A model generated the notes under the pieces. It was given only the letters and a program-made list of their open reading frames with translations. It searched no databases and had not been told where the DNA came from. Position numbers and translations under genes: made by a program. A stretch of 64,000 bases of DNA from Thiohalorhabdus sp. Cl-TMA (GTDB lineage Bacteria; Pseudomonadota; Gammaproteobacteria; Thiohalorhabdales; Thiohalorhabdaceae), in assembly GCF_041821045.1 (NCBI RefSeq), contig NZ_JBGUAW010000012.1, forward strand, positions 1 to 64,000, given 5' to 3'. The stretch's first letter is position 1. Each line of letters starts with the position of its first letter. This document shows, piece by piece, positions 36,141 through 53,351 of the stretch.

Positions 36141-36152
36141 AACGGTCCTAAC

Positions 36153-36493: not shown

Positions 36494-38215
36494 TTGGCCA
36501 AGTTGAAGAAAATCCGGCTGGGCGATCTGCTCGTCCAGGAAGGCATCATTTCCGAGGCCCAGCTCGGGGAAGCGCTCCGTATCCAGAAGGAGAGCGGCAG
36601 GAAGCTGGGACAGATCTTCGTCGAGCAGAATCTGATCAGCGAGAAGAAGCTGCTCGCCTTCGTGGCCGATCAGCTCGACATCGACCACATCGACCTCTCC
36701 CAGTACCGACTGGATTCCGAGGCCGCCCAGGCCCTCTCCGAAGCCCAGGCGCGCCGTTTCCGGGCCCTTCCCCTGAAGAGAAAAGCGAACGGCGAATACC
36801 AGGTGGCCATGGCCGATCCCACCAACATCATGGCCGTGGACCGTCTCGAGCGCATACTCGGCGCCGAGGTGGAGCCGGCCGTGGTGGCCGAGGAGGCCCT
36901 CCTGCGCGCCCTGGACCGGGTCTTCACCCACAACCAGGAGATGAGCTCCCTGGCCGACGAGATCGGCGACGAGCTGGGAGCCGACGAGGGGCAGGGCCTC
37001 CTGGAGGTCCGTCCCGGGTCCGAGGACGCCCCGGTAGCGCGTCTCATCAATACCCTGTTCACCCAGGCCGTGCGCTCGGGGGCTTCGGATATCCACGTGG
37101 AGCCGGACGAGAACGCACTGCGCATCCGCATCCGCCTGGACGGGGTGCTTCAGGAGCAGATGAAGGCGGAGCGGCGCGTGGCCAGCGCCGTGATCTCGCG
37201 GCTCAAGCTCATGGGCGAGCTGGACATCGCCGAACGACGGCTTCCCCAGGACGGCCGGTTCCAGATCACCGTGGAGGGCCATCGGATCGATGTCCGGCTT
37301 TCCACCATGCCCACCAGCCACGGAGAGGCCGCGGTGATGCGGCTCCTGGATCAGTCCGCCGGACTGATCGGCCTGGCGCAGCTGGGCATGGACGAGCCGG
37401 TCCGCGAGCGCTTCCAGCACCTGATCCGGGCGCCCCACGGCATCGTCCTGGTCACGGGGCCCACCGGTTCCGGAAAGACCACCACGCTCTATGCCGCCCT
37501 CAAAGCGATCAACGATATCGGGCAGAAGATCATCACGGTGGAGGACCCCGTCGAGTATCAGCTGCCCCTGATCAACCAGGTGCAGGTCCGCCCCCAGATC
37601 GACCTGACCTTCGCCCGGGTGCTGCGCTCTGTACTCCGTCAGGATCCGGACACGGTCATGGTGGGTGAGATCCGGGACCACGAAACCGGCAGCATCGCCA
37701 TCCGGGCCGCGTTAACGGGGCATCTGGTATTTTCCACGCTGCATACCAACGATGCCCCCAGCACCGCCACACGCCTGATCGACATGGGCGTGGAGCCCTT
37801 CCTGGTGGCCTCCAGCCTGCGCGGCGTGGTGGCACAGCGGTTGGTGCGGCGGATCTGCGAGAGCTGCAAGGAGGCCGAGCACCCCTCGGAAACGGTGCTC
37901 GCGGGGCTGCGCGTGGACCCCGCCGAGGCGGCAGGCATCACCTTCTATCACGGCACGGGCTGCGCCGAGTGCAACAACACCGGCTACCGCGGCCGGGTTG
38001 GTCTCTATGAGCTCATGGAAGTGGACGGCCGGGTACGGGACGCCATCGGCCGCAATGACCGCCAGGCCCTGGATCGGGCCCTGGAGCGGCAGGACTCCCA
38101 CAAATCCCTGCGGGAATCCGGTCTGGAAAAGGTACGGGCCGGGGTGACCAGTCTGGAAGAGGTGCTCCGGGTCACGGCGGAGGATCGGGAAATGGCCGAG
38201 CCGGGCACGGTCTGA
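36494..38215 (+). CDS. mshE: MSHA pilus assembly ATPase MshE (GspE/PilB family)
   Basis: Hexameric ATPase that drives pilus extension from the cytoplasm. 573 residues, TTG start with GGGAG upstream. The N-terminal MshEN domain has two tandem repeats starting RLGDLLVQEGIISEAQLGEA and KLGQIFVEQNLISEKKLLAF, each with the RLG/KLG...L...G/N...L pattern that binds c-di-GMP in Vibrio MshE. The C-terminal part has Walker A GPTGSGKTTTLYA, the Asp box, Walker B TVMVGEIRDHETG and the His box, then a four-cysteine zinc site (CESC near 455 and CAEC near 495). It starts the locus and is followed six bases later by mshG. No strong promoter is obvious upstream. Confidence 0.93.
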   Translation: MAKLKKIRLGDLLVQEGIISEAQLGEALRIQKESGRKLGQIFVEQNLISEKKLLAFVADQLDIDHIDLSQYRLDSEAAQALSEAQARRFRALPLKRKANGEYQVAMADPTNIMAVDRLERILGAEVEPAVVAEEALLRALDRVFTHNQEMSSLADEIGDELGADEGQGLLEVRPGSEDAPVARLINTLFTQAVRSGASDIHVEPDENALRIRIRLDGVLQEQMKAERRVASAVISRLKLMGELDIAERRLPQDGRFQITVEGHRIDVRLSTMPTSHGEAAVMRLLDQSAGLIGLAQLGMDEPVRERFQHLIRAPHGIVLVTGPTGSGKTTTLYAALKAINDIGQKIITVEDPVEYQLPLINQVQVRPQIDLTFARVLRSVLRQDPDTVMVGEIRDHETGSIAIRAALTGHLVFSTLHTNDAPSTATRLIDMGVEPFLVASSLRGVVAQRLVRRICESCKEAEHPSETVLAGLRVDPAEAAGITFYHGTGCAECNNTGYRGRVGLYELMEVDGRVRDAIGRNDRQALDRALERQDSHKSLRESGLEKVRAGVTSLEEVLRVTAEDREMAEPGTV

Positions 38216-38221
38216 TCGCCG

Positions 38222-39451
38222 ATGGCCACCTACCGCTTCCGGGCAAAGGACGGCCAGGGCTACACCGTAACCGGCACCATCGAGGCGGATTCCCCTCAGG
38301 AGGCCGCGGAACGGCTCTCCGCCGGCCAGCGGGTTCCCCTGGAGATCGCCGAGGCCACGGATGAAGCCGATGGCGGAACCGGACTGCGGGAGCTGTGGAG
38401 CCGCTTCAATCGACAGAAGGTTACCCTGGAAGAGCTGATCCTCTTCTCCCGGCAGATGGCCACCCTCCTGCGGGCCGGGGTTCCCCTGATCCGTGCCCTG
38501 GCCGGCCAGGTGGAGTCGGTGGATAACGACCGCCTGCGGGAGGCTCTGCAGGGGGCGCGGGAGACCCTGGAGGCCGGGCGGACCCTCAGCGACGGTCTGG
38601 CCCTGTACCCCGACGTATTCTCCGCGCTGTTCGTCCACATGGTGCGAGTGGGGGAGTCCAGCGGCAATCTGGAAGAGGTCTTCGACCGCATGAGCGGGTA
38701 TCTGGAGCAGGAGAAGGATACCCGGGACCGCGCCAGGCAGGCCGTCCGTTATCCGGTCATGGTGGTCGCCGCCATCGCCGTGGCCTTCATCATCCTGAAC
38801 GTCTTCGTCATTCCGCAGTTCGTGGACATGTTCTCCGGCCTCGATGCCGCGCTTCCCCTCCCCACGCAGATCCTGATCGCCATCTCCACCACCACCCGGA
38901 GCCTCGGGTGGCTGATACTCGTGGTCCTGGTGGGCACGATCTTCGCGGCACGGCGGTACATCGGCACCGCCCGGGGACGCTACCGCTGGGACAGGCTCAA
39001 GCTGCGCCTCCCCATCGTCGGCGACATCTTCACGAAGCTGTCCATGGCACGGTTCACGCGGACCTTCGCCATCACCAGCCGGAGTGGCGTGCCCGTGATG
39101 CAGGGCCTGAACGTGGTGGTGGGGGCAGTGGGCAACCGGTATGTGGGCGTGGTGGTGGAACAGATCCGCAACGGGGTGGAGCGGGGAGACAGCCTGGCCA
39201 ATGCGGCGCGCCGGAGCGGCGTGTTTCCCGCCACCGTGCTGCAGATGCTGGAAGTGGGGGAGGAGACGGGTGCGCTCGATGAAATGATGGAGCAGGTGGC
39301 GGCCTATTACGAACGCGAGGCGGACCTCAAGATCGGCAACCTATCCGCTCTGATCGAGCCGGTGCTGATCGCCGTCATCGGCGCCATGGTCCTGCTCCTG
39401 GCGCTGGGCATCTTCCTCCCCATGTGGGACATGAGCCGGGCCCTGGGGTGA
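38222..39451 (+). CDS. mshG: MSHA pilus platform protein MshG (GspF/PilC family)
   Basis: Inner-membrane platform protein that links the MshE motor to pilin insertion. 409 residues in two similar GspF halves: RQMATLLRAGVPLIRALAGQ (about 78-97), with VGESSGNLEEVFDRMSGYL, and RFTRTFAITSRSGVPVMQGL (about 278-297), with VGEETGALDEMMEQVAAYY. Three membrane segments are visible (MVVAAIAVAFIILNVFVIP, IILVV region and LIAVIGAMVLLLALGIFLPM). The N-terminal 60 residues resemble the GspF N-domain (YRFRAKDGQGYTVTGTIEA). Its stop overlaps the start of the next gene (GTGA). Confidence 0.93.
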   Translation: MATYRFRAKDGQGYTVTGTIEADSPQEAAERLSAGQRVPLEIAEATDEADGGTGLRELWSRFNRQKVTLEELILFSRQMATLLRAGVPLIRALAGQVESVDNDRLREALQGARETLEAGRTLSDGLALYPDVFSALFVHMVRVGESSGNLEEVFDRMSGYLEQEKDTRDRARQAVRYPVMVVAAIAVAFIILNVFVIPQFVDMFSGLDAALPLPTQILIAISTTTRSLGWLILVVLVGTIFAARRYIGTARGRYRWDRLKLRLPIVGDIFTKLSMARFTRTFAITSRSGVPVMQGLNVVVGAVGNRYVGVVVEQIRNGVERGDSLANAARRSGVFPATVLQMLEVGEETGALDEMMEQVAAYYEREADLKIGNLSALIEPVLIAVIGAMVLLLALGIFLPMWDMSRALG

Positions 39452-41469
39452 GTGCCGTTCCCTCTGTGCCGGCGCGGGCTGGCCCCTGGCTGATTCCCGG
39501 GCTCGTGGCCTTCGGCCTGGGTACGGGTCTGTTCTACAACGGTCTGGACCACCGGTACCTGTTCCTGGCCGTATCGGCGCTCTGGGTGGCGCTTTTGGCG
39601 GCTCTCTGGCCCGGTTTCCGGAGCCACTGGTCGGTTCCCCGATCGGCGGTGGTCGGCGGCGTGGTCCTGCTCTGGGCCTTCTGGGGAGTGAGCCTGACGT
39701 GGTCCACGGTGCCGTATACCAGCGCCATCTACTACTGGTGGCTCGGTACCCTGCCGGTGACCTTCCTGCTCCTGGTGCTGGCCCGGGAGCCCGACCGCGT
39801 GCTGCGCGGAACCCTGTCCCTGCTGGGCGTTCTCGTGCTGCTCCTGGGGCTGGCGGCGCTGATCCAGTACTACGGCTTCCCCGAGATCCGCCGGGCCCGC
39901 TGGCCCTTCCTGAATCCCAACTCCCTGGCGGGACTCCTGAATCTATTCCTGGTGCCCGCCTTCTGGGCCTTCTTCCGGAGCGCCCGGCGGGGGCGGAGCA
40001 TTCTGGCGCTGCTGGCGGCCTGTATCCTGTTCGCCGGTGTGCTGGCCACGGGGAGCCGGGGTGCCCTGGTGGGGCTGGCGGTAGGTGCCGGCGTGCTTCT
40101 GGGGGTCGGCGTCCGAGTGACGCCGCTGGTCCGGCGCCGCCGTACGGCCGTCCTGGTGCTGGCCCTCTCCGCGGTATTCACGGTTATGAGCCTGACCGGT
40201 CCGAGCGACCTGGGGGAGCGGGTGCGCTCCCTTTCCGACCCCGCCGCGGAGGGAAGCTGGCGGACCCGCCTCCACCTCTGGTCCGCCACGTGGCACATGG
40301 TCCAGGACCACCCTTGGCTGGGTACCGGACTGGGCACTTTCTTCCTCCACTTTCCGCGATACCGCCACCCGGAGGACGGCTCGGGCGGCTACTACGCCCA
40401 CATGGACCCCCTGCAGTTCTGGGCGGAGACCGGCATTGCGGGCCCTTTGCTGTTCTACTTGATCCTTATCGGGGTGCTGGCGCGCACGGTGCGCGCCCTG
40501 CGTGCTCCCGGGGTCGAGCCGGAGCGCAAGCTCGGCATCCTGGGCTGGTTCGGTGGTCTCCTGGCGGTGGCCGTGCACACCCATATCACCTTTCATCTCT
40601 ATCTGCTCCCCACGCTGATCGCGCTCGGAGCCGCACTGGCGGCCTGGTACCGGCTCACCGAACAAGCATTGGAGACGGAGCGGCGCCGGGTCGCGCTGCC
40701 TCGCGCGGTCCGGCCCTGGCTGTTCCAGGGCCTGGCGGCGATGATCGCCTCTCAGGCCGCTTTCCAGACCTTCCTCCCGGTCTGGGTGGAAACCGCCCAG
40801 GCCAACGCGCGCCAGCGGATCACATCCGGGGAATATACCCGCGGCCTGCGCCACCTGAACGCCATTACCCGGTTCGCGCCGCATTACGACGGCGTCTATC
40901 TGGCCAAGGCCGAGCTTATCCTGCGCATCCTCAAGGGCACGCCGACCCTCGCCCGAGAAAAGCAGCGCTCTTTGTTCCGGGAAGGACTCCGGGACCTGCG
41001 CCGGGCGGAACGGCGCAATGCCCTGCGTCCGCAGGCACCCTACCTGCGGGGCGCCCTATGGGGTTCGGCCGGCTGGCAGTCTCCGACCGTACGCCGGGAC
41101 CGGGCCCGCGCGGCCTGGCGGGAAGCGCTGGGCCGGGATCCCCGGTTCCTCCCGGCCCGACACGCTCTGGCCCGGCTGGAATGGCGCAGCGGCAACCGGG
41201 AGCGGGCCCTGGCGCTTGTCCGCGACGCTCTGGCTTGGCGGTATCCGGGCGCCGGTAAGGCCTCCCTGTACCGGCAGGGGGCGCAATGGCTGTTCGAGCT
41301 CGGGCGGAGGGAACGGGCCCGAAGCTTTCTCCGCGAGGCCCAACGGATCGGAGAAGGCTTCCGCCGGGATACGGTCCCCGAGGGGGACCCGACACCGGTG
41401 GATGGGGCGCATTCCGAAAAGTCCGCATTCCTCAATGCCTTGCCCGTCCGCTTTCCGGGAAAACCCTGA
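39448..41469 (+). CDS. O-antigen ligase/Wzy-family membrane protein with C-terminal helical repeats
   Basis: A 673-residue protein. About ten to twelve membrane segments cover residues 15-420. The long loop holds WHMVQDHPWLGTGLGTFF and FPRYRHPEDGSG...YAHMDPLQFWAETG, the Wzy_C pattern of O-antigen ligases and of PglL/PilO-type O-oligosaccharyltransferases. Residues about 440-650 are soluble, Arg/Ala-rich and TPR-like (LRHLNAITRFAPHYDGVYLAKAEL, ARHALARLEWRSGNRERALAL). These enzymes transfer a lipid-linked glycan to LPS core or to pilins. The start is GTG 39448, overlapping the mshG stop by four bases. Being coupled to mshG and directly upstream of the major pilin gene, a pilin glycosylation role is the best inference. 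It fills the place of mshF in Vibrio, but is not related by eye. Confidence 0.82.
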   Translation: MSAVPSVPARAGPWLIPGLVAFGLGTGLFYNGLDHRYLFLAVSALWVALLAALWPGFRSHWSVPRSAVVGGVVLLWAFWGVSLTWSTVPYTSAIYYWWLGTLPVTFLLLVLAREPDRVLRGTLSLLGVLVLLLGLAALIQYYGFPEIRRARWPFLNPNSLAGLLNLFLVPAFWAFFRSARRGRSILALLAACILFAGVLATGSRGALVGLAVGAGVLLGVGVRVTPLVRRRRTAVLVLALSAVFTVMSLTGPSDLGERVRSLSDPAAEGSWRTRLHLWSATWHMVQDHPWLGTGLGTFFLHFPRYRHPEDGSGGYYAHMDPLQFWAETGIAGPLLFYLILIGVLARTVRALRAPGVEPERKLGILGWFGGLLAVAVHTHITFHLYLLPTLIALGAALAAWYRLTEQALETERRRVALPRAVRPWLFQGLAAMIASQAAFQTFLPVWVETAQANARQRITSGEYTRGLRHLNAITRFAPHYDGVYLAKAELILRILKGTPTLAREKQRSLFREGLRDLRRAERRNALRPQAPYLRGALWGSAGWQSPTVRRDRARAAWREALGRDPRFLPARHALARLEWRSGNRERALALVRDALAWRYPGAGKASLYRQGAQWLFELGRRERARSFLREAQRIGEGFRRDTVPEGDPTPVDGAHSEKSAFLNALPVRFPGKP

Positions 41470-41487
41470 TCCGGTAAGGGATAGGCC

Positions 41488-41517
41488 TTGTCAGCCTACG
41501 CAGAACCCGCATAGACT
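41488..41517 (+). promoter_or_regulatory. Possible sigma70-like promoter for the pilin genes
   Basis: TTGTCA (41488-41493) and TAGACT (41512-41517) are 18 bases apart, 36 bases upstream of mshA. Major pilins are often expressed more strongly than their assembly genes, so an internal promoter here makes sense. A dedicated promoter is not proven. Confidence 0.5.
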
Positions 41518-41552
41518 TCCCGTCCCATACACTCTGAAACCGAGGTTGACGC

Positions 41553-42038
41553 ATGTCCGGGCGAGGGGAAGCGGGCTTCACGCTCATCGAGCTGGTGGTG
41601 GTAATCACCATTCTGGGAATATTGGCGGCAACCGCCTTGCCGCGTTTCGTCAACATGCAGGACGACGCCCACCAGGCGGCGGTCAAGGGGGCCACCGGAG
41701 GACTGCAGGGTGGGGTGAGCCTGGCTCATTCCAAGGCGTTGGTCGTGGGCCTGCCCAGCTCGGGTAACAACAAGGACATCCAGCTCGATAGCAACGCATC
41801 TGTTGCGGTCAATGACAAGGGGTGGCCCATAGCCGGGGCGGGCGGTACGGCAGGTGGGCCGGGCTGTGTCTCCGTCTGGAATCAGGTCATGCAGAACCCT
41901 CCTTCTCTGTCGGGTACCGATGCCGATTACTCGGCGAGCCACAGCGGCTCTCAGTGTACCTATAAGTACCAGAAGGGCGGCGGGAACCCAGAAATTACCT
42001 ATAATCATAACAATGGCACTGTCTCCAACGACCTGTGA
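41553..42038 (+). CDS. mshA: MSHA-type major pilin MshA
   Basis: The presumed pilus subunit, 161 residues. A short leader (MSGRGEAG) is cut by prepilin peptidase before FTLIELVVVITILGILAAT, the conserved hydrophobic helix with Glu5. Mature sequence: LPRFVNMQDDAHQAAVKGATGG is typical of MshA. Two cysteines near the C-terminus (GGPGCVSVWNQV and GSQCTYKYQ) can form the pilin disulfide loop. It overlaps mshB by four bases. The leader and helix are identical in type to mshB, so which is the major subunit is inferred from size and the disulfide. Confidence 0.88.
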   Translation: MSGRGEAGFTLIELVVVITILGILAATALPRFVNMQDDAHQAAVKGATGGLQGGVSLAHSKALVVGLPSSGNNKDIQLDSNASVAVNDKGWPIAGAGGTAGGPGCVSVWNQVMQNPPSLSGTDADYSASHSGSQCTYKYQKGGGNPEITYNHNNGTVSNDL

Positions 42039-42640
42039 ACGTGGCTGACCATTTGAGCTGCGTCCGGCCCCCATCGCCCCGGGGCTTCACCCTCATCGAG
42101 CTGGTGGTGGTCATCGTGATCGTTGGCATCCTGGCCGCCATCGCCCTGCCGCGGTTCCTGGGCATGCAGAACGAGGCCAGGATCGCCGCCACCAAGGGCA
42201 ACCTCGGCGCCATCCGGGGCGGCATCGCCCTGGCACACGGCAAGATCATCGCCAACGGCAACAACACCGGGGCAACCGGCACCAATCCCGACTGGCCCAC
42301 CGCCGCCGAGCTGCGCGCCAACGAGCTGGACAGGCCCGGATACCCCAAGCTGGACGGGCTCCGCATCTACCAGAGCTCGGCCTCGGGCGGGGCCACCCAG
42401 CTCCCGCCGGTGCAGCTTCCCGACATGGCGAACGCCGGTTCCCGGCCGGACGAGCTGGTGGTCCGGTCCGCCAATGACGCCCGCCAGCGCGTCGGACAGA
42501 CGGGCGGCAACGCATCCCGGTGGGCCTACTATCCGGGGGACAATGCGAATTCCAACCTGGAGGCGGTCTTCTACGTCCTGGATGGACGCGGTATCCGGGC
42601 CAATCAGGATGGCGACGGGCAAACCCCCAACCTCTGGTAG
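42035..42640 (+). CDS. mshB: MSHA-type pilin MshB
   Basis: A 201-residue pilin with a 17-residue leader cut before FTLIELVVVIVIVGILAAI, then LPRFLGMQNEARIAATKGNLG, closely resembling mshA over the first 40 mature residues. The C-terminal part is different, without a disulfide, and ends NLEAVFYVLDGRGI... The start is GTG 42035, overlapping the mshA stop. It could be a second major subunit or a minor pilin. Confidence 0.83.
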   Translation: MNVADHLSCVRPPSPRGFTLIELVVVIVIVGILAAIALPRFLGMQNEARIAATKGNLGAIRGGIALAHGKIIANGNNTGATGTNPDWPTAAELRANELDRPGYPKLDGLRIYQSSASGGATQLPPVQLPDMANAGSRPDELVVRSANDARQRVGQTGGNASRWAYYPGDNANSNLEAVFYVLDGRGIRANQDGDGQTPNLW

Positions 42641-42652
42641 GGAGGCGTTTCC

Positions 42653-43252
42653 GTGATCCCCCGCGCACGCCCCGGTCGGTTCATCCCCGTCCGGGGCGTT
42701 TTGCCGCCGTTTCCCCCGCCGAAGACCCGATCCACGAAATTGGGCGCTCCCGTGCGCGACCGGGGTGCATTCCCCAGCCCGCGCGGTTATACGGTGATCG
42801 AGCTGGTGACGGTGATCGTTATTCTGGGCGTGCTGGCTGCCGTCGGTCTGCCGCGCTTCTTCGATTCCGGTGACTACGCCGCCAGGGCGGGTGTGGATCA
42901 GACCCTGGGCGCCCTGCGGTTCGCCCAGCAGCAGGCCATGTCACGTTTACGGCGCATCCGGGTGGAGACCGCGGGCCAGTCGGTCCGTCTCGAATACTGC
43001 GATACCGCCCTGACGCGGGGCACCACGTGCGGCGGAGCGGGCGGGAGCTGGCGGCCGGTGCGGCTTCCCCAGCGCGCCGCTAACCGCTGGACTATCGGGG
43101 TGCCGATCACCAGCGCCACCTTCCATTTCAACAGCCTGGGCCGCCTGGTGGACAGCGCCGGGAGCCCCCGCGACGATGATCCCGACCTCACCGTGGGCAG
43201 TGGACGGATCGTGCGCCTGGTGGGGGAAACGGGGTTCGCTTATGCGCCCTGA
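42653..43252 (+). CDS. mshC: MSHA minor pilin MshC-like
   Basis: A 199-residue pilin-like protein. The class III signal is PSPRG before YTVIELVTVIVILGVLAAV, so the first mature residue would be Tyr rather than Phe. From GTG 42653 (GGGAGG upstream) the leader would be 45 residues, Pro/Arg-rich and unusually long; a GTG at 42752 would give a 12-residue leader but has no ribosome-binding site. GSWRPVRLP and a DPDLTVGSGRIV C-terminus follow. It overlaps mshD by 11 bases. Minor pilins of this kind prime assembly or cap the tip. Confidence 0.78.
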   Translation: MIPRARPGRFIPVRGVLPPFPPPKTRSTKLGAPVRDRGAFPSPRGYTVIELVTVIVILGVLAAVGLPRFFDSGDYAARAGVDQTLGALRFAQQQAMSRLRRIRVETAGQSVRLEYCDTALTRGTTCGGAGGSWRPVRLPQRAANRWTIGVPITSATFHFNSLGRLVDSAGSPRDDDPDLTVGSGRIVRLVGETGFAYAP

Positions 43253-43868
43253 AGCGGGCCGCTCTTCCAGCGCAGTCTCCCCACGGGGCCTTACCCTCGT
43301 CGAGCTGGTGGTGGCCATCGTGGTCATCGGCGTCGGCGTGACCGCCGTTCTCGGCCTGATCGGCTCCGCCAGCCGCAACAGCCCCGGACCGCAGCTGCGC
43401 ATCCGGGCCGTGGAGCTGGCCCAGAGCTACCTGGACGAAATCCGCGCGGTTCGCTGGGACGAGCGGCTCGCTTCCCGCAGCGGCTGCGTGGACTCCGGCG
43501 GCTCCACCAACTGCCCCGGGGGGCCGGACGCGGCCTGCACAGCCGGCGGTGGCTGCATGCCCGATGGCGGGGAATCCCACGCGGACGGCCAGCGGAGCCT
43601 GCTGGACGACGTGGACGACTTCGATGACCTGGCGGAGGGGACCGCCTGCGGATACACCTACCCCCTCCGGGAATCCTCCGGCCAGGACCGGTCCGACCGC
43701 TATCGGGGCTACTGCGTGGCCGTGGACGTGGCCTTCGACGATGCATTGAACGGGGTCCCGGCGGCGGACGCCAAGCGTGTCGATGTCCACGTCCGGACCC
43801 CCGTGTCCTCCTGCTCCGACCCGAGGGCCTGCGGCATGACCTTCACCACCTTCCGGCTCAACTTCTGA
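43242..43868 (+). CDS. mshD: MSHA minor pilin MshD-like
   Basis: A 208-residue prepilin with leader ending SPRG before LTLVELVVAIVVIGVGVTAVLG, the MshD/PilV form of the helix with a short Gly/Val-rich end. AVELAQSYLDEIRAVRWDER after the helix is the conserved MshD block. The central region is Cys/Gly-rich (SGCVDSGGSTNCPGG, ACTAGGGC), more cysteines than I would expect. It shares one base with the next gene. Probably a tip-complex minor pilin. Confidence 0.82.
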   Translation: MRPEAGRSSSAVSPRGLTLVELVVAIVVIGVGVTAVLGLIGSASRNSPGPQLRIRAVELAQSYLDEIRAVRWDERLASRSGCVDSGGSTNCPGGPDAACTAGGGCMPDGGESHADGQRSLLDDVDDFDDLAEGTACGYTYPLRESSGQDRSDRYRGYCVAVDVAFDDALNGVPAADAKRVDVHVRTPVSSCSDPRACGMTFTTFRLNF

Positions 43869-44737
43869 TGCCGGGTGCCGGCCGCACCAACCGGGCTGAT
43901 TCGCCCGGATTCTCCCTCATGGAGCTGGTGGTGGTGATCCTCCTGGTGGGCATCCTGGGCGGCATCGGGAGCGCCATCATCGGCAATTTCGCCGGAGGCT
44001 ATACCTCCGGGGCCGAGCGGCAGCTCCTCGCCGGGCACGGCCGGGTCGCCGTGGAGCGGATCACCCGGGAGATCCGCGGGGCGGTGCCCAATTCGGTCAC
44101 CCCCTTCGACGCCGGGGAAGGGGCGGGGAGCGGGCTGCTACTGATCCGGGGGGCCATGGGCGGACGCTACCGGGTGACCGGGCCGTCGGACTCCCGGCTT
44201 GAATTCGGCGCCGGCCATGCGGGGGATACCTTCCAAGCCTATGGCCTGAAAGGGCTCGAGAGCCCCGGGAGCGGCGCCGAGTATCAGCTGTTCGTCTATC
44301 CCATGGGACCGGACGACCTCTTCGGCGCCCTGCCGGGGAGCGGTGCCCGGGCCCGTCTGGCCGATCCCAACGTGAACGGCAATACCGGGTACGACACCCG
44401 GACCATCGCCCTGGAGACCGGGCAATACTTCGAGCGCGGCTCGCCCAACCGGCGTATCTTCGCCGCGCGCTCCGTGCTGGCCTTCTGCAAGCGGGGCGAG
44501 CTGCTCGCCCTGCACGAGCGTCAGCTGGCGGCCATCGGCGACGGATCCATCGATCCGGCGGATTTCTGCAATGGCACGGGCGCGCCTGTTCTGGTCAACC
44601 GGGTGGATGCCCTGGAGTTCGAATACCAGCAGGGCCACCAGAGCCGCAAAGCCCTCGTGCGCTTCTATCTCCGCCTGGGGAGCGCGGACGAGTCCGTGGA
44701 TTTCCTCCAGGAGGTGCACATAAAGAATGTCCCCTGA
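43868..44737 (+). CDS. mshO: MSHA minor pilin MshO-like
   Basis: A 289-residue prepilin with leader ending DSPG before FSLMELVVVILLVGILGGIG. RQLLAGHGRVAVERITREIRGAVPNSV after the helix is typical of MshO and of PilW/GspJ-like minor pilins. The rest is a beta-rich head. It overlaps mshP by 11 bases. Together with C, D and P it would form the tip-initiating complex. Confidence 0.8.
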   Translation: MPGAGRTNRADSPGFSLMELVVVILLVGILGGIGSAIIGNFAGGYTSGAERQLLAGHGRVAVERITREIRGAVPNSVTPFDAGEGAGSGLLLIRGAMGGRYRVTGPSDSRLEFGAGHAGDTFQAYGLKGLESPGSGAEYQLFVYPMGPDDLFGALPGSGARARLADPNVNGNTGYDTRTIALETGQYFERGSPNRRIFAARSVLAFCKRGELLALHERQLAAIGDGSIDPADFCNGTGAPVLVNRVDALEFEYQQGHQSRKALVRFYLRLGSADESVDFLQEVHIKNVP

Positions 44738-45152
44738 TTCCCGCACCCACTCGGAATCCGGCGTGGGGCTCGTCGCCGCGGTGTTCGTCATCGTCGTGCT
44801 CGGGCTGCTGGGGAGCGCCCTGGTGCGGCTGACGGTCACGGAGCAGGCGAGCGTAGGCCGGGAGATGGCCTCCCTGCAGGCGTTTCTCGCCGCCGAGACC
44901 GCCGTGCAGTGGGGGCTTTACCACAGTCTGAATCCCAGCGGGGGGCCGAGCAGCCTTCCGGGGGGCGGGCTCTTCGCCGCCACGCCGCCCGGCGGGCTGC
45001 GTGGTTGCGGAAGCTCGCGAGTCCTTCCGGGGACGAATCCGCCCGAGCGGTTCGGTCCGCTGTATCGGTTCCGCGCCGAAGGGCTCTGCTATCCGGGGAG
45101 AACGGAGACCACCCGGCGGCAGGTGGAAGTGCGCTTCCAGGAGGATGGGTAG
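44727..45152 (+). CDS. mshP: MSHA minor pilin-like protein MshP
   Basis: A 141-residue protein with an N-terminal helix (GVGLVAAVFVIVVLGLLGSAL) lacking the Glu5 of other pilins, as in PilX/GspK-type minor pilins. TVTEQASVGREMASLQAFLAAE follows, the MshP/PilX pattern. The gene is followed two bases later by the giant mshQ. Its identity is by place and this helix rather than by a strong domain. Confidence 0.75.
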   Translation: MSPDSRTHSESGVGLVAAVFVIVVLGLLGSALVRLTVTEQASVGREMASLQAFLAAETAVQWGLYHSLNPSGGPSSLPGGGLFAATPPGGLRGCGSSRVLPGTNPPERFGPLYRFRAEGLCYPGRTETTRRQVEVRFQEDG

Positions 45153-45154
45153 GC

Positions 45155-48100
45155 ATGGGTCACCTTGTTGATGCGCTTGGCCGCGGGACCCGGAGCGGCC
45201 CTGGAGCCGGATTCCGTCTGGCCTGCCTGGCACTTGCTCTGCTATGGGCCGGCACCGTGCCCGGGGCACCGGCATCCGGGCCCTTGCAGTGCGCCCCTTC
45301 CGCCGTGAGAAGCCAGGCGAACATCAACGAGATCACCTTCTCGGGGGCGAGCGTCGAGTTCGTCGAGCTGGAGATCCTCGAGAACGACGTTTCGGTAAGC
45401 GGCTGGCGGGCATGCTATGTCTCCAAGAACGTGGGCCCCGATTGCGTCCCGCTGGGCAACGGCGCCTTCACTGTCCATCCGGATGGCTCCTTCCAGGACA
45501 CGTTCTTCAGCCCCTATTACGCACAAACCTGGCTCGTATACCCCTTCCCCAATCCGACGCCCAACTCCACCTACGGCGAGGTGGTGCTGCTCGATGGCTC
45601 CGACCGGGTATTGGATTACCTGCGGTACTGCAAGGATCTGTCAGGCAACAAGTGCGAACGGTACTGGCAGGTCTCCGGCGCCTGCGGCGCCGATTTCGAG
45701 CACGGCAGCACCAACGTGAAGGATATCTCCCGGCGTACGGACGGCGATGGTCCCTGGGAGGAGACCACCGAGGAAACCCAGGGGGAGACCAACACCGAGC
45801 CGCAGTCCCCGGATCCCGCCGAGGCGGTGGCGTACTACGCCATGGAGGAAGCCGAGTGGGACGGCACTACCGGAGAGGTCCGGGACAGCAGCAGCTCCGG
45901 GAACCACGGTACCGCAAGCGGCCTGGCGGATACCGTGGCGGACGCCAAGGCAGGGTGCCGGGCCGGTCGGTTTCCCCTTGATCTTTTGCTGCCGCGCAAC
46001 GCCGTGGATACCGGACTGGACGTGGACGGGGAAATCGGCAGCCAGGGGACCATCGCTTTCTGGTACAAGGCGAACCGGGATTGGGATGCCGGTGGCGGAA
46101 ACTGGCTGGTGGACGGATCTTCCTGGGGCGCCTTGAGCGTGGATATCCCCTTCCACTTCCGCCTGGACGGCAGCGGGGCCCTGGAATTCACCCTGGCGGA
46201 CGAAGCAGGCAGCGCCTATGCGGTCACCTCCGGCGCTTTCTCCGGACTGGCCGGGACCTGGGTGCACCTGGCACTGACCTGGCGGGTCAGTCCCAATTTC
46301 CAGGAGCTGGCGATCTACAAGGACGGCGACCGTATTGCCAGTCAGACCTGGTCCCGGGGCGGCACGAGGTTGGCCGATGTTGCCGAGCTCTTTTTGGGAG
46401 ACGCCCGCTGGCTGGGCAATTCGGCAAGGGGCCTGCTGGACGAGGCCTATATCTTCAGCGGCCAGCTGACGGAGCAGCAGATCCGGGATCTCATGGGCCG
46501 TAGCCGCGATTGCAACATCACCCTGGATCAGTTCCGGATCGACCACGATGGCGCGGGCATCAATTGCCTGCCGGAGACCGTGACCCTTGCCGCCGTGGGC
46601 AGCTCCGGCACGCCGGTTCCCGATTATACCGGAACCGTTACGCTGTCCACCTCCACCGGTAACGGCACGTGGACCCTCCAATCCGGTAATGGCACCCTCT
46701 CGGATCCGAGCGCCGATGACGGCACCGCCACCTACACTTTCGCCGCGGCGGACGGGGGCGAGGTGACCCTGGCGCTCCGCAACACCCACCGGGAGCGCCT
46801 GAACATCGACGCAGCCGACGGCACGGTCAGCGACGTCGATGATTCGGGGGATATGGTTTTCCGGCCCTACGGGTTCCTGGTTACCCCGGACCCTCTTCCC
46901 GACCAGGTGGCCGGTCGGGCCTTCGATCTGACCTTGACCGCCGCCGGCGAGATCCCCTCCGATCCCGGGTGCGGGGTGATCGAGGAGTACAGCGGCGACC
47001 AGGAGCTTCGCTTCTGGACCGTGCACGAGAACCCCGCTTCGGGGATCGAATCGGTGACCGTGGACGGTACGGCGATTCCGGACAGCGAAGCGGCGGCCGG
47101 GGACCGGACCGTGCGTTTCACGGATGGTCGGGCGCAGGTGCGCGTGAACTATCCGGATGCCGGCTCCATCCGTATCCGTGTCAAGGACGAGACCGGCATC
47201 GGTGAGCCGCCCGCCGGCAGCGGGAGCGAGGTGATCGGCGGCTCCGACGCCTTCGTCTGGCGGCCGTTCGGGTTCGATGTGCAGGTGCCCGCGGATACCG
47301 CGGAGACGGGGCCCTCCGGGGCGGTACTGGCCGCTGCGGGTCAGCCCTTCACCGCCGGGGTCCGCGCGGTGGTCTGGCAGGCCGCCGATGACGCGGACGG
47401 CAACGGGGCTCCGGATTCCGGGGCCGATCTCGCGGACAACGCCACCACGCCGAACTTCGGCAACGAGACCAATCCGGAAACCGTGGAGCTGGCTCCCGCC
47501 GTCGTCGCGCCGGCCTCGGGAGAGAACGGCGATCTGGTCAATGCGGCCTTCGATTTTTCGCCCGCGGGCGCCAGCGGCGGGGTCAGCCGTTCGGACGTGG
47601 AATGGAGCGAGGTGGGCTATGTGGAGCTGGCGGCATCGCTCATGGACGGGGATTACCTGGGGGCGGGCGGGATCGCCGGGCGGGCCCGGCAGGTGGGCCG
47701 TTTCATTCCCCACCATTTCCGCCTGTCCGCGCCCGGCCTGACGAACCGCGCCGACCTTACGGGATGCGCGGACCCGTTCACCTATATCGGCGAGCCCTTC
47801 GACATGCGGTTCACCCTGACCGCGGAAAACCGGCACGCGACCCCCACGGCCAATTTCCGGGGCGACTATGCCCGCCTGGATTCGGCCGCGGAGCTGAGCC
47901 CGGGGGCTACCGACGGAAACCGCACGCTGACCGGATCGCTTTCCGTGGCCAATGCCGCTTTCTCCGCCTGGGCGGACCCGGTAACCGGCACCGGACCGGG
48001 AAGCGCGGAGGTTTCGCTTCGTCTGTCGCTGGTCCGGGACGGCCCCGAGGGCCCCTATGCGCCCTTCCGGGTGGGCATTGCCCCCCGGGACGAGGACGGG

Positions 48101-48649
48101 GTGACCCTGCAGTCCTACGACCTCGATCTGGACGGGGACGGGGGCGACGACCACGCCCTGGTGGATCGGACGGAGCTGCGTTACGGGCGCCTGTACATCC
48201 AGAATGCCCACGGGCCGGAAACCGAGAACCTGGAGGTTCCCGTTCTTGCCCAGTACTTCACCGGCACCCATTTCGAGCGGAACGTGCAGGACGGCTGCAC
48301 GCCGCTCAGCCGCAGCGGGCAGTCCGGGACGGGACGGATCCGGCTGTCCGACGGGGGCGGGTGGGTCAACGCGGACCAGGCGGTGGGTCTCCGTGGGGGC
48401 AGTGGCGGGCAAACCGAGGGGACAGCCGTCACCGGAATCGACGGCGGCAACGGCATTCTTACCCTGCTGGCGCCCGGCGCGGGGAGTACGGGGTACGCGG
48501 AGGTCCGGGTGGAACTGGGTGCGCATCCCTGGCTGCGCGGCGACTGGGACAACGACGGCAGCCACTCGGATGATCCGGAGGCCCGCGCGGTATTTGGCCG
48601 CTACCGTGGGGATGACCGCATCCTCTACTGGCAGGAGATATTTCCCTAG
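45155..48649 (+). CDS. mshQ: MSHA surface protein MshQ with LamG domain
   Basis: A 1164-residue exported protein, the largest in the window. The signal peptide is RLACLALALLWAGTVPGAPA, cut near residue 43. Residues about 45-200 resemble a lamin-tail-like domain (INEITFSGASVEFVELEI, DYLRYC). A concanavalin/LamG-like domain covers about 225-449 (YYAMEEAEWDG, DSSSSGNHGTASG, ISFWYKAN-type TIAFWYKANRD, then DEAYIFSGQLTEQQIRDL). From about 454 to the end runs the MshQ/DUF6701-type region (DQFRIDHDGAGINCLPETV to FGRYRGDDRILYWQEIFP), with many Asp/Gly-rich strands. It ends the pilin half of the locus and may be a tip adhesin. Binding target unknown. Confidence 0.85.
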   Translation: MGHLVDALGRGTRSGPGAGFRLACLALALLWAGTVPGAPASGPLQCAPSAVRSQANINEITFSGASVEFVELEILENDVSVSGWRACYVSKNVGPDCVPLGNGAFTVHPDGSFQDTFFSPYYAQTWLVYPFPNPTPNSTYGEVVLLDGSDRVLDYLRYCKDLSGNKCERYWQVSGACGADFEHGSTNVKDISRRTDGDGPWEETTEETQGETNTEPQSPDPAEAVAYYAMEEAEWDGTTGEVRDSSSSGNHGTASGLADTVADAKAGCRAGRFPLDLLLPRNAVDTGLDVDGEIGSQGTIAFWYKANRDWDAGGGNWLVDGSSWGALSVDIPFHFRLDGSGALEFTLADEAGSAYAVTSGAFSGLAGTWVHLALTWRVSPNFQELAIYKDGDRIASQTWSRGGTRLADVAELFLGDARWLGNSARGLLDEAYIFSGQLTEQQIRDLMGRSRDCNITLDQFRIDHDGAGINCLPETVTLAAVGSSGTPVPDYTGTVTLSTSTGNGTWTLQSGNGTLSDPSADDGTATYTFAAADGGEVTLALRNTHRERLNIDAADGTVSDVDDSGDMVFRPYGFLVTPDPLPDQVAGRAFDLTLTAAGEIPSDPGCGVIEEYSGDQELRFWTVHENPASGIESVTVDGTAIPDSEAAAGDRTVRFTDGRAQVRVNYPDAGSIRIRVKDETGIGEPPAGSGSEVIGGSDAFVWRPFGFDVQVPADTAETGPSGAVLAAAGQPFTAGVRAVVWQAADDADGNGAPDSGADLADNATTPNFGNETNPETVELAPAVVAPASGENGDLVNAAFDFSPAGASGGVSRSDVEWSEVGYVELAASLMDGDYLGAGGIAGRARQVGRFIPHHFRLSAPGLTNRADLTGCADPFTYIGEPFDMRFTLTAENRHATPTANFRGDYARLDSAAELSPGATDGNRTLTGSLSVANAAFSAWADPVTGTGPGSAEVSLRLSLVRDGPEGPYAPFRVGIAPRDEDGVTLQSYDLDLDGDGGDDHALVDRTELRYGRLYIQNAHGPETENLEVPVLAQYFTGTHFERNVQDGCTPLSRSGQSGTGRIRLSDGGGWVNADQAVGLRGGSGGQTEGTAVTGIDGGNGILTLLAPGAGSTGYAEVRVELGAHPWLRGDWDNDGSHSDDPEARAVFGRYRGDDRILYWQEIFP

Positions 48650-48811: not shown

Positions 48812-49978
48812 CTGAAACTGCCGCTGTTTAACAAAAAGCGCTACGGCGAATCCTCCCTGGCGGTGGTGGATGTACGCGAAGGTGCGCTGATACTCGCCCT
48901 GCTCCGGAAGGGCGCCACCGTTCCCTGTCTGAGCGCGCTTACCCGAATCCCCCTTGCGGACCACGAGCAGAGCGATCCCGAACCCCTTGCCGAGCGGTTG
49001 GGCCGGGAGGTGGAGGAACGGGGGCTCGAGGGCTGTCCGGCCGCCACCCTGCTGTACCGGCCGCAATTCAGCCTGATCCTGACGGAGTCCCCCGGCGGGG
49101 TGGAAGGCGAGGACCTGCGGGCCGCCATGCAATGGCGAGTGCGCGACCTGCTGGACTTTCCCGTGGAGGATGCCGTCCTCGACGTCCTGCCCATTCCGGA
49201 GCTGGATCTGCCCGGCGAGGGTCCGCCCCTGTTCGTGGTGGCCGCCCAACGTAGGACCGTGAAAGAGCGGGTGCAGGCCGGCCGTGATGCCGGGCTGGAC
49301 CTGCGGGTGGTGGATATCCCGGATATGGCGCACCGCAATCTGGGATTGCTGCTGCCCGATCAGGACGCCTCCGGAACCTGCCTGCTGGTACTGGATACGG
49401 AAAACCCCCTGATCAGCATCAGCCGCGGAGGGGAGCTGATCTTCAGCCGGCAGCTCGCCGTGGATATCGGCGAGGAGATCGAGGAGGTCGCCCGGCGGCT
49501 GGACGTGGAGGGGGACGAGGCGCGCCAACTGGCCGCATCGCATGGCCTGGCGGGAATGCCGGAGGCGCCCGGAAAGCGGGGGATGACCCCCGGGGCGTAC
49601 CAGGGCCCTGAGGAGGGTGGTCTCGAGCTCGAAGCGGAGCCTTCCGTACAGCAGGCCGATCCCCTGCACGCGGCCCTGACCGACTACGCGGAGCGCCTGG
49701 CGCTGGAGGTCCAGCGGTCGCTGGACTATTACGATTCCCGCTTCCGTCAGGCCGCCATCCGCAAGGTGCACATTGCCGGCACGGGCAGCCGAGTGAACGG
49801 ACTGGAGGAGTACCTGGCAGGGGCGCTGGGCCTGGATTTCCGGCAGTTCGACCCGTTGAGTCACCTGGAAACCACGGAGCTGCTCCGTAGCGAGGCCGGG
49901 GTCGACCAGGAGCTCCTTCAGGAAGCCGTCTACGCCATCGGTGCCGGCCTGCGGCTCATGGACGCGGGGGGCGGCTGA
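48812..49978 (+). CDS. mshI: MSHA biogenesis protein MshI (PilM-like), probable CTG start
   Basis: A PilM/actin-like cytoplasmic protein that helps align the assembly platform. About 388 residues. The conserved N-terminus (LKLPLFNKKRYGESSLAVVD) lies upstream of the first standard start codon (GTG 48863), with no ATG, GTG or TTG in frame after the stop at 48788, so translation may begin at CTG 48812 (with AGG upstream) or at CTG 48791. Other blocks: DLDVEEGDEARQL region and the C-terminal LALEVQRSLDYYDSRFRQAAIRKV and HIAGTGSRVNGLEEYLAGALG. It overlaps the next gene by one base. Confidence 0.8.
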   Translation: MKLPLFNKKRYGESSLAVVDVREGALILALLRKGATVPCLSALTRIPLADHEQSDPEPLAERLGREVEERGLEGCPAATLLYRPQFSLILTESPGGVEGEDLRAAMQWRVRDLLDFPVEDAVLDVLPIPELDLPGEGPPLFVVAAQRRTVKERVQAGRDAGLDLRVVDIPDMAHRNLGLLLPDQDASGTCLLVLDTENPLISISRGGELIFSRQLAVDIGEEIEEVARRLDVEGDEARQLAASHGLAGMPEAPGKRGMTPGAYQGPEEGGLELEAEPSVQQADPLHAALTDYAERLALEVQRSLDYYDSRFRQAAIRKVHIAGTGSRVNGLEEYLAGALGLDFRQFDPLSHLETTELLRSEAGVDQELLQEAVYAIGAGLRLMDAGGG

Positions 49979-50610
49979 TGCAGCAGATCAACCTCAATCG
50001 TCCGGAGCTGTGGCCGAAGCCGACGCCCTTTCCGGCCCGGTTCATGGCGCTGGCGCTCCTGGCTGCCGGTGCAGTGCTGGGTATAGGGCTGGCCGCGCTG
50101 GAATACCGGCAGGAGGGCGCCGCGGCAAGGCTTGAAGACGCCCGTCAGGAGCGGCAACGGGTGCAGACGCACCTCAATGGGCTTCGACAGGCCCACGAGA
50201 GCCGCCGCGGGGAGCTTTCCCGGCTGCGCAAGGAGGTGACGGAGCTCAAGGACCGCACCGGGACCCTTCGCCGGGCCCGGAAGGCCATGGAACGACGTCT
50301 GACGGCGGCCGGGAGCAAGGCTGAGCTGGTTCGGGCGCTGGGGCGGGCCCGAGCGGGGATGCCCGACATCTGGCTGACCCGGTTCGCGCTCACCGGCGTG
50401 GACGAGGTGGCGGTGGAGCTGGAAGGTCGCGCCCGCATACCGGAATCCATTCCCCGTTACCTGCAGGCGGTGGCCGACCAGACGGTTTTCCGCAAGGGAT
50501 TCTTCGAGGACCTCTCCGCCGAGGCGCCGGAGGAGAGAACGGATGGCCTGCTCCGGTTCAGCAGCCGCACCCGGTTCAAGCTCGATGACGCCCGGGAGGC
50601 CGCTCGGTGA
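49978..50610 (+). CDS. PilN-like MSHA assembly protein
   Basis: A 210-residue bitopic membrane protein beginning MQQINLNRPELWPK, the short motif by which PilN binds PilM-like partners, here MshI. One membrane helix (MALALLAAGAVLGIGLAAL, about 23-41) is followed by a long coiled coil (about 45-115) and a small ferredoxin-like domain typical of PilN/GspL C-termini. It corresponds to the PilN-type protein called MshI2 in some annotations. It overlaps mshJ by four bases. Confidence 0.83.
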   Translation: MQQINLNRPELWPKPTPFPARFMALALLAAGAVLGIGLAALEYRQEGAAARLEDARQERQRVQTHLNGLRQAHESRRGELSRLRKEVTELKDRTGTLRRARKAMERRLTAAGSKAELVRALGRARAGMPDIWLTRFALTGVDEVAVELEGRARIPESIPRYLQAVADQTVFRKGFFEDLSAEAPEERTDGLLRFSSRTRFKLDDAREAAR

Positions 50611-51278
50611 AGGACTGGTGGGCAAGGCTGGAGGCCCGGCTGGATGCGCGTACCCTCCGGGAACGGGTGCTGGTTTTCGCCGCGGTGACAGCGGTGCTGG
50701 GGTTCAGCGCCTACCGCCTCGCCATAGCCCCGGCCCTGGCAGAGCTGGAACGGCTCCAGGAGCGGGCGGATACGGTACGGGGCGAAGTCAAGCGCCTTCG
50801 CCACGAAGCATCCCGTCTGGATACGGTGAATTTACGGGAGGAAACGGCGCGGGTGAAAGGGCGACGGGCGGATCTGCGTGGAGCGCTCCGTGAAGAGCGC
50901 CGCGCCCTGCGCGCCCGGGTCGGCGAGTTCATCCGCCCGGAGCGCTTGATGCGGTTCTTCGAGGACCTGCTTCTCGCCCGCAATGCAGGGGATATCACGG
51001 TCAAGAAGATCAGCGGGCTGCAGCGGCAGCCCGTGGCCCTGAACGGTCCCGACGCCGCGAACCCCGCATCCGTTCCCCTGGCCCGGAAGGGGGTCGAGGT
51101 GGTGGTGGAGACGGACTACCCGAGCACCCTAGGCTTCCTGGACACGGTGGAGGGGCTGCCCTGGGCGGTCCAGATCACCGAGCTCGGCTACGAGGTCCTG
51201 TCCTATCCCCGGGCCCGGGTGTCGCTGACCGCCCATACCTTCCTGCTCGATGCAACGGGGAAGGGTGATGGCGCGTAG
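50607..51278 (+). CDS. mshJ: MSHA biogenesis protein MshJ (PilO-like)
   Basis: A 223-residue membrane protein with GTG start. An N-terminal segment (LRERVLVFAAVTAVLGFSAYRLAIAP) is the membrane helix, and a coiled-coil stretch (about 40-100) precedes the PilO-like C-terminal domain. MshJ pairs with PilN-like proteins to form the inner-membrane alignment complex. The end overlaps mshK by 11 bases. Typical length. Confidence 0.85.
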   Translation: MKDWWARLEARLDARTLRERVLVFAAVTAVLGFSAYRLAIAPALAELERLQERADTVRGEVKRLRHEASRLDTVNLREETARVKGRRADLRGALREERRALRARVGEFIRPERLMRFFEDLLLARNAGDITVKKISGLQRQPVALNGPDAANPASVPLARKGVEVVVETDYPSTLGFLDTVEGLPWAVQITELGYEVLSYPRARVSLTAHTFLLDATGKGDGA

Positions 51279-51660
51279 CCTTCGGGAGCTTTCCATAGCG
51301 GTGGGAGCGGGTCTGTTCCTTCCCGTGCTGATGCTGGCGGGCGTGACGCAGTTTCCGCCGGTCCAGGCAGGGGGCGGGAGGGTGGCCGATCCCACCCGCC
51401 CGCCCGAGGTGGCAGCGCCGGGCGGGGACCGTGGCTCGGGAGGGGGGGAGGCCGAGCGCCTCGTCCTCCAGACGCTGCTGCAGGGTCCGAGTCGGCGGCT
51501 GGCCATCATCAGCGGGCGGAGTGTCCGGGTGGGGGAGCGGATCGGCGGCTATACCGTACAGAACATCTTGCAGGATCGGGTCGTGCTCTCGGGGGAGGGG
51601 GGCACCCGGACTCTGCGATTGGCACCCACGTCCAGCATGGAAAAGGTTCCGAGTAATTGA
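51268..51660 (+). CDS. mshK: MSHA biogenesis protein MshK
   Basis: A 130-residue periplasmic protein with a signal peptide (LRELSIAVGAGLFLPVLMLAGV) and the short ADPTRPPE motif that characterises MshK and PilP-like linkers. The C-terminal part (LQTLLQGPSRRLAIISGRSV, VGERIGGYTVQNILQDRVVLSG) is a GspC/PilP-type homology region that contacts the secretin. The ATG at 51268 has GGGGAAGG upstream; two earlier in-frame starts exist. It overlaps mshL by four bases. Confidence 0.84.
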   Translation: MARSLRELSIAVGAGLFLPVLMLAGVTQFPPVQAGGGRVADPTRPPEVAAPGGDRGSGGGEAERLVLQTLLQGPSRRLAIISGRSVRVGERIGGYTVQNILQDRVVLSGEGGTRTLRLAPTSSMEKVPSN

Positions 51661-53351
51661 CTCGCCATTTTTGGGCCGCCTTGGCCGCCGCATTCCTGGC
51701 GACCGGCTGCGCGACGAAGGATGCTCCTCCCCGGGATAGTACACCGGCCCTGTCGTCTCCGGAGGCGGACAAGCAGAAGGACGCCGCCGATTCCTCCCGC
51801 GAGGAATCCGAGCACGCATCCCTGGATTCGGCGTCCATGCCCCCGCTTGAGGCCGCCCCGCCGCCCGGGGAAGAGCGCGGGGAAGCGGAGCGCTTCGACG
51901 TTTCCGCCCGCAAGGTTCCGGTGCGGGAGGTCCTACTGGGGCTGGTGGAGGGCACGCAGCACAGCGTCGTCATCAATCCCGAGGTGAGCGGGGAAGTTAC
52001 CCTCAATCTGCGCAGCGTGACCGTTGCCGAGGCCCTGGATTTCCTGTCCCGGACCTACGGATACGGTGTCGAGCAGATCGGCAACCGGTTCCTGATCCGT
52101 CCTGCGGCGCTCCAGACCCGGACCTTCCGGATCAATTACCTGAACGTATCGCGCAAGGGCTCCAGCCAGACCCAGATCAGCTCCGGGCAGGTGACCCAGT
52201 CGGGCGCCATGGGCAATGCCCAGAGCGGGGGAAATACCGGGGACGGCGTGATCGGAAGCGAGATCAAGACCTCCTCCTCCGCGGATTTCTGGGACCAGCT
52301 GCGAAGCGGACTGGAGGCCATCCTGGAAGGCGGCCCCTCGGAGAAGGACCGCTTGGTGATGCACCCGGGCGCGGGGGTGGTGCTGGTCCGGGCCATGCCC
52401 AATACGCTGCACCAGGTGGCGGATTACCTGGAGGCCGTGGAAGGCGGTAGCCACCGGCAGGTGATCATTGAGGCCAAGGTGCTCGAGGTGCAGCTGAACA
52501 AGGCCCATGAGAGCGGAATCAACTGGGCCACCCTCGGCTCCTCCGGAGAGGGGCGCCTCGCCACCCGGCTGGGCAGCACCAGCAGTGGCGGCGCGACCGT
52601 GGGCGAGGCGCTGGAGCAGGGGGCCAGCCCCCCGGCGCTGTTGCCGCAGCTCCAGGGCATTAACCCGGACGGCTTCTTCTCCGCCGCCTTCTCCCTGGAC
52701 AACTTCTCCGCGGTGCTGTCCTTGCTGGAAACGCAGGGGGATGTCAATGTACTGTCCAGTCCCCGGGTGGCGACGGTCAATAATCAGAAAGCCGTAATTA
52801 AGGTCGGTGTGGACGAGTTCTTCCTGACCGACGTGGAGCTGCAGAATACCGCCACCACGGGGGTGACGACCCAGCAGCAGAATTTCGACGTGGAGCTGAC
52901 CCCGTTTTTCGACGGGATCGCCCTGGATGTGACACCGCAGATCAGCAAGAACGGCATGGTTACGCTTCATGTCCATCCGTCGGTTACCGAGGTCACCTCA
53001 CAGCAGAAGCAGTTCCAGTTCAGTAATGAGCAGGTATTCCAGTTCCCGCTGGCGCGCAGTGACGTGCGTGAATCCGATTCCATTGTCCGGGCGCGTGACG
53101 GGGAGATCGTGGTCATCGGCGGACTGATGTCGGATTCCAATACCGATTCCCAGACCCGGGTCCCGGTCCTCGGCAGCATTCCCTTGCTGGGCGCCCTCTT
53201 TCGTCACGAGGAGCGTCGCCAGACCAAAAGGGAGCTGGTCATTCTGCTACGGCCCCGGATTGTGCACGGGAAGCCCGTGAAGGATGGGCGGCAGGAAGCC
53301 CTGCAGCGGATCTGGGACAGGGGGCTGCGCAAGACGGCGCCGGACGGGTGA
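51657..53351 (+). CDS. mshL: MSHA outer-membrane secretin MshL
   Basis: Forms the outer-membrane ring through which the pilus passes. 564 residues from a TTG at 51657, overlapping the mshK stop (TTGA). The lipobox LATGC puts the lipid on Cys18. An N-terminal STN/secretin N0-N1 part (EVSGEVTLNLRSVTVAEALDFL) is followed by VIIEAKVLEVQLNKAHESGI and the secretin core (NVLSSPRVATVNNQKAVIKVG, VTPQISKNGMVTLHVHPSV and GEIVVIGGLMSD). The end TKRELVILLRPRIV is standard. It is followed 12 bases later by mshM. Confidence 0.93.
   Translation: MTRHFWAALAAAFLATGCATKDAPPRDSTPALSSPEADKQKDAADSSREESEHASLDSASMPPLEAAPPPGEERGEAERFDVSARKVPVREVLLGLVEGTQHSVVINPEVSGEVTLNLRSVTVAEALDFLSRTYGYGVEQIGNRFLIRPAALQTRTFRINYLNVSRKGSSQTQISSGQVTQSGAMGNAQSGGNTGDGVIGSEIKTSSSADFWDQLRSGLEAILEGGPSEKDRLVMHPGAGVVLVRAMPNTLHQVADYLEAVEGGSHRQVIIEAKVLEVQLNKAHESGINWATLGSSGEGRLATRLGSTSSGGATVGEALEQGASPPALLPQLQGINPDGFFSAAFSLDNFSAVLSLLETQGDVNVLSSPRVATVNNQKAVIKVGVDEFFLTDVELQNTATTGVTTQQQNFDVELTPFFDGIALDVTPQISKNGMVTLHVHPSVTEVTSQQKQFQFSNEQVFQFPLARSDVRESDSIVRARDGEIVVIGGLMSDSNTDSQTRVPVLGSIPLLGALFRHEERRQTKRELVILLRPRIVHGKPVKDGRQEALQRIWDRGLRKTAPDG

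Follow-up and report, generated by a model that had tools for sequence, protein, structure and literature searches.

A predicted WaaL-fold ligase with a C-terminal TPR domain encoded within MSHA pilus loci

Results

A gene inside the MSHA pilus operon of Thiohalorhabdus sp. Cl-TMA probably encodes an inner-membrane ligase of the WaaL fold, O-oligosaccharyltransferase-like and dedicated to the MSHA pilus, with a TPR arm docking its acceptor. The gene lies in the window that was analysed, a stretch of 64,000 nucleotides at the start of contig NZ_JBGUAW010000012.1, and its product is called the Wzy_C-TPR protein below. MSHA pili start surface attachment, for example in Vibrio cholerae, and their glycosylation has only been speculated on in the papers that we found.

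The reading frame is open along its full 673 codons. Its GTG start shares bases with the TGA stop codon of mshG as GTGA, and starting instead at the in-frame GTG at 39424 would lengthen the protein by 8 residues. The Wzy_C domain (PF04932) scored 79.4 bits against a Pfam gathering cut-off of 31.7. The overlap, the open frame and this score agree with the initial annotation, which described a Wzy_C-type protein starting inside the mshG stop codon. The helical-repeat C-terminus proposed there was also recovered, as a TPR superhelix in the predicted model and as sub-threshold matches of Pfam TPR models over residues ~550-634. As had been stated, the gene stands ahead of the pilin genes, with prepilin 1 following after a gap of 83 bases.

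The surrounding locus runs from mshE and mshG through the Wzy_C-TPR gene, two prepilins, mshC/D/O/P/Q-like genes, an mshI-like gene, two small inner-membrane genes and an mshK-like gene to mshL and mshM/N-like genes (Table 1). The small MSHA genes were named from gene order and from matches to their counterparts in other loci. The MshL secretin and an MshE with an MshEN domain (63 bits against a cut-off of 23) are both present, and the locus is a full MSHA locus. No LPS genes were found in the MSHA neighbourhood of the Wzy_C-TPR gene, and no glycan-synthesis genes were identified within the MSHA region examined. According to the initial annotation, the gene occupies the place of mshF in Vibrio. 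This position was confirmed, and an MshF-like prepilin is absent from the window and from loci L020 and L088/L126. Replacement of mshF by the ligase gene is ruled out, as the two genes occur together in six other checked loci.

Table 1. Features of the MSHA locus and of the Wzy_C-TPR gene (positions in the window)
Feature	Position	Strand	Basis or remark
mshE, extension ATPase with c-di-GMP-binding MshEN domain	36494..38215	+	Pfam T2SSE, MshEN; NCBIfam NF053729 over cut-off; TTG start
mshG, platform protein	38222..39451	+	T2SSF
WaaL-fold (Wzy_C) ligase (predicted) with C-terminal TPR domain	39448..41469	+	673 aa, GTG start
Wzy_C domain of the ligase	40015..40455	+	residues 190-336; holds R204, R274, H318
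TPR superhelix of the ligase	40771..41373	+	residues ~442-642 (structural matches to 652), predicted periplasmic
Prepilin 1, probable MshA	41553..42038	+	161 aa, two cysteines towards C-terminus; N_methyl; gene order
Prepilin 2	42035..42640	+	201 aa; N_methyl
mshC-like prepilin	42653..43252	+	order conserved in other loci
mshD-like prepilin	43176..43868	+	order conserved in other loci
mshO-like prepilin	43868..44737	+	order conserved in other loci
mshP-like (PilX_N)	44727..45152	+	order conserved in other loci
mshQ-like large protein	45134..48649	+	order conserved in other loci
mshI-like (PilM), second inner-membrane gene, mshJ-like, mshK-like	48863..51660	+	order conserved in other loci
mshL secretin	51657..53351	+	TIGR02519, 278 bits against cut-off 250
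mshM-like and mshN-like genes	53364..55498	+	order conserved in other loci

The MSHA locus (36140-55743) is flanked by hflC and by hisZ-purA; in G001 too, miaA-hflK-hflC stand ahead of mshE. In the window, hflK directly follows miaA (33921-34006), and the place normally taken by hfq and hflX contains neither gene. A search for Hfq (PF17209) found none in this genome, which is 99% complete, nor in either of the two relatives of the genus; of 17 further genomes of the class examined for it, 14 have it.

The recurrence of the gene was surveyed in 369 genomes of the class using a profile built from the top matches regardless of context. Full-length homologues were defined by E 1e-85 or better, two contig-end pieces in G013 being counted as one gene, and tblastn was used to find the MSHA genes around them. 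At least 32 full-length homologues were found, 22 of them in MSHA loci of 21 genomes and 14 families; because three candidates were scored per genome, these counts are lower bounds. An MSHA locus makes up <1% of such a genome, and linkage to MSHA is expected by chance in <1% of cases. Two checks named in the initial annotation, absence of the gene from other MSHA loci and an LPS association in place of pilus linkage, failed to refute it: the gene recurs in MSHA loci and has no neighbouring LPS genes.

Four operon positions were seen among the MSHA-linked copies. The order mshG-ligase-pilin of the window (G000) is shared by G001 and G104, most copies stand between a pilin and mshC/D, those of G084 and G311 precede mshE, and those of G113, G229 and G327 are convergent after mshP. 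Linked copies occur in Thiohalophilus thiocyanatoxydans, Halospina denitrificans and Thiohalomonas denitrificans, in MAGs of Sulfuricaulis, Methylophaga and Thermodesulfobacteriota, and, more loosely, in Halorhodospira abdelmalekii. Two copies lie inside one MSHA locus in L084 (G133) and in L113; the G133 pair flanks mshC and may correspond to two acceptors. An MshL-type secretin exceeded its cut-off in 139 of the 369 genomes, and 13 of 20 MSHA loci without a listed homologue contained mshE, mshG and a prepilin while lacking a full-length Wzy_C-TPR gene. The gene is accessory, and many MSHA loci do without it.

With 67 homologues placed on a tree, parsimony needed 10 changes of the MSHA label, against 22.7 with shuffled labels, and the branches marked by a star force at least 7 changes of MSHA linkage. 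One clade holds most MSHA-linked copies, and the window's own pair clusters with Alphaproteobacterial copies outside MSHA loci. This pattern indicates that MSHA linkage was gained or lost repeatedly, beyond shared descent alone. The nearest relatives outside the genus belong to Micavibrio-like Alphaproteobacteria (L107-L112) and are not part of an MSHA locus; two genes upstream of the L107 copy stands a DotI/IcmL-like gene. Genomes of family f112 carry two sister copies each, one at the MSHA locus and one elsewhere (G113, G229, G327; L069, L070-L074), possibly a natural example in which each pilus has its own ligase. The second G229 copy (L069) lies directly after a pilin, behind pilS/pilR-like genes, and a Thiobacillus homologue (L136) lies directly after a PilA-like pilin. 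Judged by gene order, what the homologues have in common as a partner is a pilin.

The structure of the protein was predicted by AlphaFold2 on 42 homologues (pLDDT 90.1, pTM 0.91). A structure comparison of the model matched residues 9-410 with WaaL (7tpg; Z 24.6, rmsd 5.1, 367 residues aligned), and the TPR part resembled MamA, PilF and PilW. A phmmer search of the PDB with the window protein alone returned no match. Arginine is abundant in the loops around 345-362 and 409-422 and residues 379-386 carry no charge, suggesting by the positive-inside rule that the long helix from residue 423 exits to the periplasm. Because this helix leads to the periplasm, the TPR arm and the catalytic histidine lie on the same side in the predicted topology.

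Residues N158, R204, R274, G292, G294, H318, D320, E327 and H377 are invariant in all 42 homologues. A profile of the membrane domain matched WaaL at 2.2e-24 and 9rmk, an entry named oligosaccharyltransferase, at 2.7e-14. The numbering of 9rmk fits R298, H349, H400, E404 and P406 given by Schulz et al. for PglL of Neisseria meningitidis, so that R204, R274 and H318 fall on the PglL positions R224, R298 and H349. In the profile alignment, H377 falls exactly on PglL H400 and N158 at the position of N180, and none of the 42 homologues shows a change at the counterparts of PglL N180, R224, R298, G316, G318, H349 and H400. Schulz et al. (PMC3643930) name N180 and H400 as conserved in PglL but not in WaaL, and neither is present in the aligned WaaL. 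All four residues listed as markers of PglL against WaaL (N180, G316, G318, H400) are present in the window protein, G316 and G318 also in the aligned WaaL. The other Wzy_C proteins of the genome show Asn or His at these positions singly, and for that reason the pair is read as a leaning towards PglL and no proof.

Other PglL residues are replaced in the 42 homologues: Q178 by N/D/T, E404 by T/N/D/S and P406 mostly by N/H/I. Mutation of E404 cripples PglL (PMC12800693), and four comparison proteins with a PglL_A match carry the Q/N and H-E-P motifs. By its residues, the protein is a superfamily member with an intact active site; it is not a typical WaaL, and it is not a PglL.

Domain models gave a similar picture. 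Wzy_C matched all 22 MSHA-linked members, and PglL_A (PF15864) matched none of them nor any protein of the genome, so the profile search proposed at the outset came out positive for the first model only. At the C-terminus Wzy_C_2 (PF11846) was never above cut-off; it was weak in two of the 22 (best E 0.0038), the window protein not among them, and TPR models matched in its place. The TfpM model (NF058641) had no match in the window protein and matched one of the 42 homologues at E 5e-4. The PglL/PilO-type family that was initially assigned could not be upheld: PglL_A, a Wzy_C_2 match above cut-off, TfpM and Q178/E404/P406 are all missing. Domain models and residues together rule out a canonical PglL, PglS-type domains and TfpM. 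The LPS or O-antigen gene context expected of WaaL was not seen either: the gene belongs to an MSHA operon in the window and across 14 families. By eye, no conserved C-terminal Ser was found in the prepilins adjoining the gene and no other acceptor motif in the neighbouring prepilins, and no Ser/Thr excess was evident relative to prepilins of loci without it.

Three further Wzy_C proteins are encoded in the genome and are predicted to be able to serve LPS or EPS. One of them, at L098 (G000:C5:281000), is a TIGR03097 exosortase-associated putative O-glycosylation ligase, with 430 bits against a cut-off of 188. The Wzy_C protein at L210:4000-13300 (G000:C1) has 547 aa, no TPR match and a weak TfpM match; it is encoded next to an ABC transporter and a homologue of pilC, and may be a ligase for the other type IV pilus. 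ABC-type genes like those at C1 also adjoin homologues of the Wzy_C-TPR gene in G028 and G173 (L021, L066). The C1 protein was rejected as a second TPR-ligase, as it has no TPR match and cannot be aligned with the window protein by BLASTP, and no other was found in the genome. An initiating sugar-phosphate transferase is encoded in the genome, which makes a lipid-linked donor plausible.

Discussion

The protein shares with WaaL of Cupriavidus metallidurans (7tpg/7tpj) the membrane fold, the RGA and RxxxW arginines and the HND histidine motif, but differs in its TPR arm, its pilus-locus setting, and Asn158 and His377, absent from the aligned WaaL. With PglL (N. meningitidis numbering; 9rmk) it has in common the Wzy_C core and seven residue equivalents, whereas PglL_A, Wzy_C_2 above cut-off and Q178/E404/P406 are lacking and a C-terminal TPR superhelix is found instead. 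PglL genes have been known since 2013 often to adjoin pilin genes (PMC3643930). Four O-OTase classes are recognised, namely TfpO/PilO, TfpM, PglS and PglL (PMC12645811). Like TfpO and TfpM, the window protein lacks PglL_A, and its linkage to one pilin recalls TfpO/PilO, TfpM and PglS. The papers found place none of these three at an MSHA locus. Unlike the pilins served by TfpO/PilO, the adjoining prepilins have no conserved C-terminal Ser acceptor. V. cholerae also has a gene for a predicted O-OTase near msh genes, pglL (VC0393); it is found upstream of the operon, and the authors of that study raise MSHA components as speculative targets (PMC6901666). V. cholerae PglL differs in being encoded outside the operon and in being a general OTase whose targets are broad. 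The open-access literature searched yielded no account of MSHA operons that include a WaaL-fold ligase bearing a TPR domain.

We propose that an undecaprenyl diphosphate-linked glycan, flipped to the periplasm, would bind the membrane domain, where R204 and R274 would hold the diphosphate and H318 would act as the base on the acceptor hydroxyl. The periplasmic TPR arm may capture the acceptor before or during assembly, most likely the adjacent MSHA major pilin. Ligase and pilus would be made together, here through coupling of translation to that of mshG and in other loci through a position next to the pilin gene. The donor, the role of the TPR arm and the transfer of glycan to the pilin are inferred, the acceptor being taken from linkage.

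The initial idea of a ligase serving the MSHA pilus, once detached from the PglL/PilO-type family, finds strong support in the recurrence in many families and positions, the WaaL-type fold and the intact catalytic residues. Counting against a ligase acting on pilin, the protein is closer by profile (2e-24 versus 3e-14) and by fold to WaaL than it is to the PglL-type enzyme of known structure; further weak points are an acceptor suggested by linkage only, the replacement of E404, prepilins with no recognisable acceptor signature and an examined MSHA region in which no glycan-synthesis genes were identified. The main rival, which we consider unlikely, is that the protein joins a lipid-linked polysaccharide to a non-pilin acceptor, such as MshQ, a different acceptor in the envelope or a chain under extension, or acts on it as a Wzy-like polymerase, yielding a biofilm polysaccharide co-regulated with MSHA pili. 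Wzy_C includes polymerases as well as ligases, and the closer WaaL profile, weak TIGR03097 and IctB matches and the mshQ gene of the same locus would fit such a role; yet the surroundings of the MSHA-linked copies showed no polysaccharide cluster, and outside MSHA loci the Thiobacillus and second G229 copies stand directly behind pilins.

WaaL being the best solved match, the protein could also be the LPS O-antigen ligase of the cell, placed in the MSHA locus by chance. This is extremely improbable given the recurrence across 14 families, the three other Wzy_C proteins of the genome, the TPR arm, the absence of LPS genes nearby and the paralogue pairs with one member at MSHA and the other elsewhere. 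A non-catalytic scaffold, in which ligase fold and TPR domain would aid pilus assembly, is likewise very unlikely: the TPR part is PilF/PilW-like and several members match the PilW model weakly, but such matches are generic, many MSHA loci lack the gene, and the catalytic Arg/Arg/His and Asn never vary among the homologues.

MSHA pili encoded with the Wzy_C-TPR protein are thus probably sugar-coated by their own dedicated enzyme. The wider proposal, for which we see an even balance, is a further class of pilin-dedicated O-oligosaccharyltransferases, with a WaaL fold, a periplasmic TPR docking arm and no PglL signature, repeatedly recruited to MSHA loci and other pilins with one ligase per pilus, so that the MSHA pili of many environmental Proteobacteria would be glycosylated. 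A ligase gene inside the MSHA operon across at least 14 families makes MSHA glycosylation directly testable. The homologues are also candidate enzymes for protein glycan coupling, in which a separate TPR domain may determine the acceptor.
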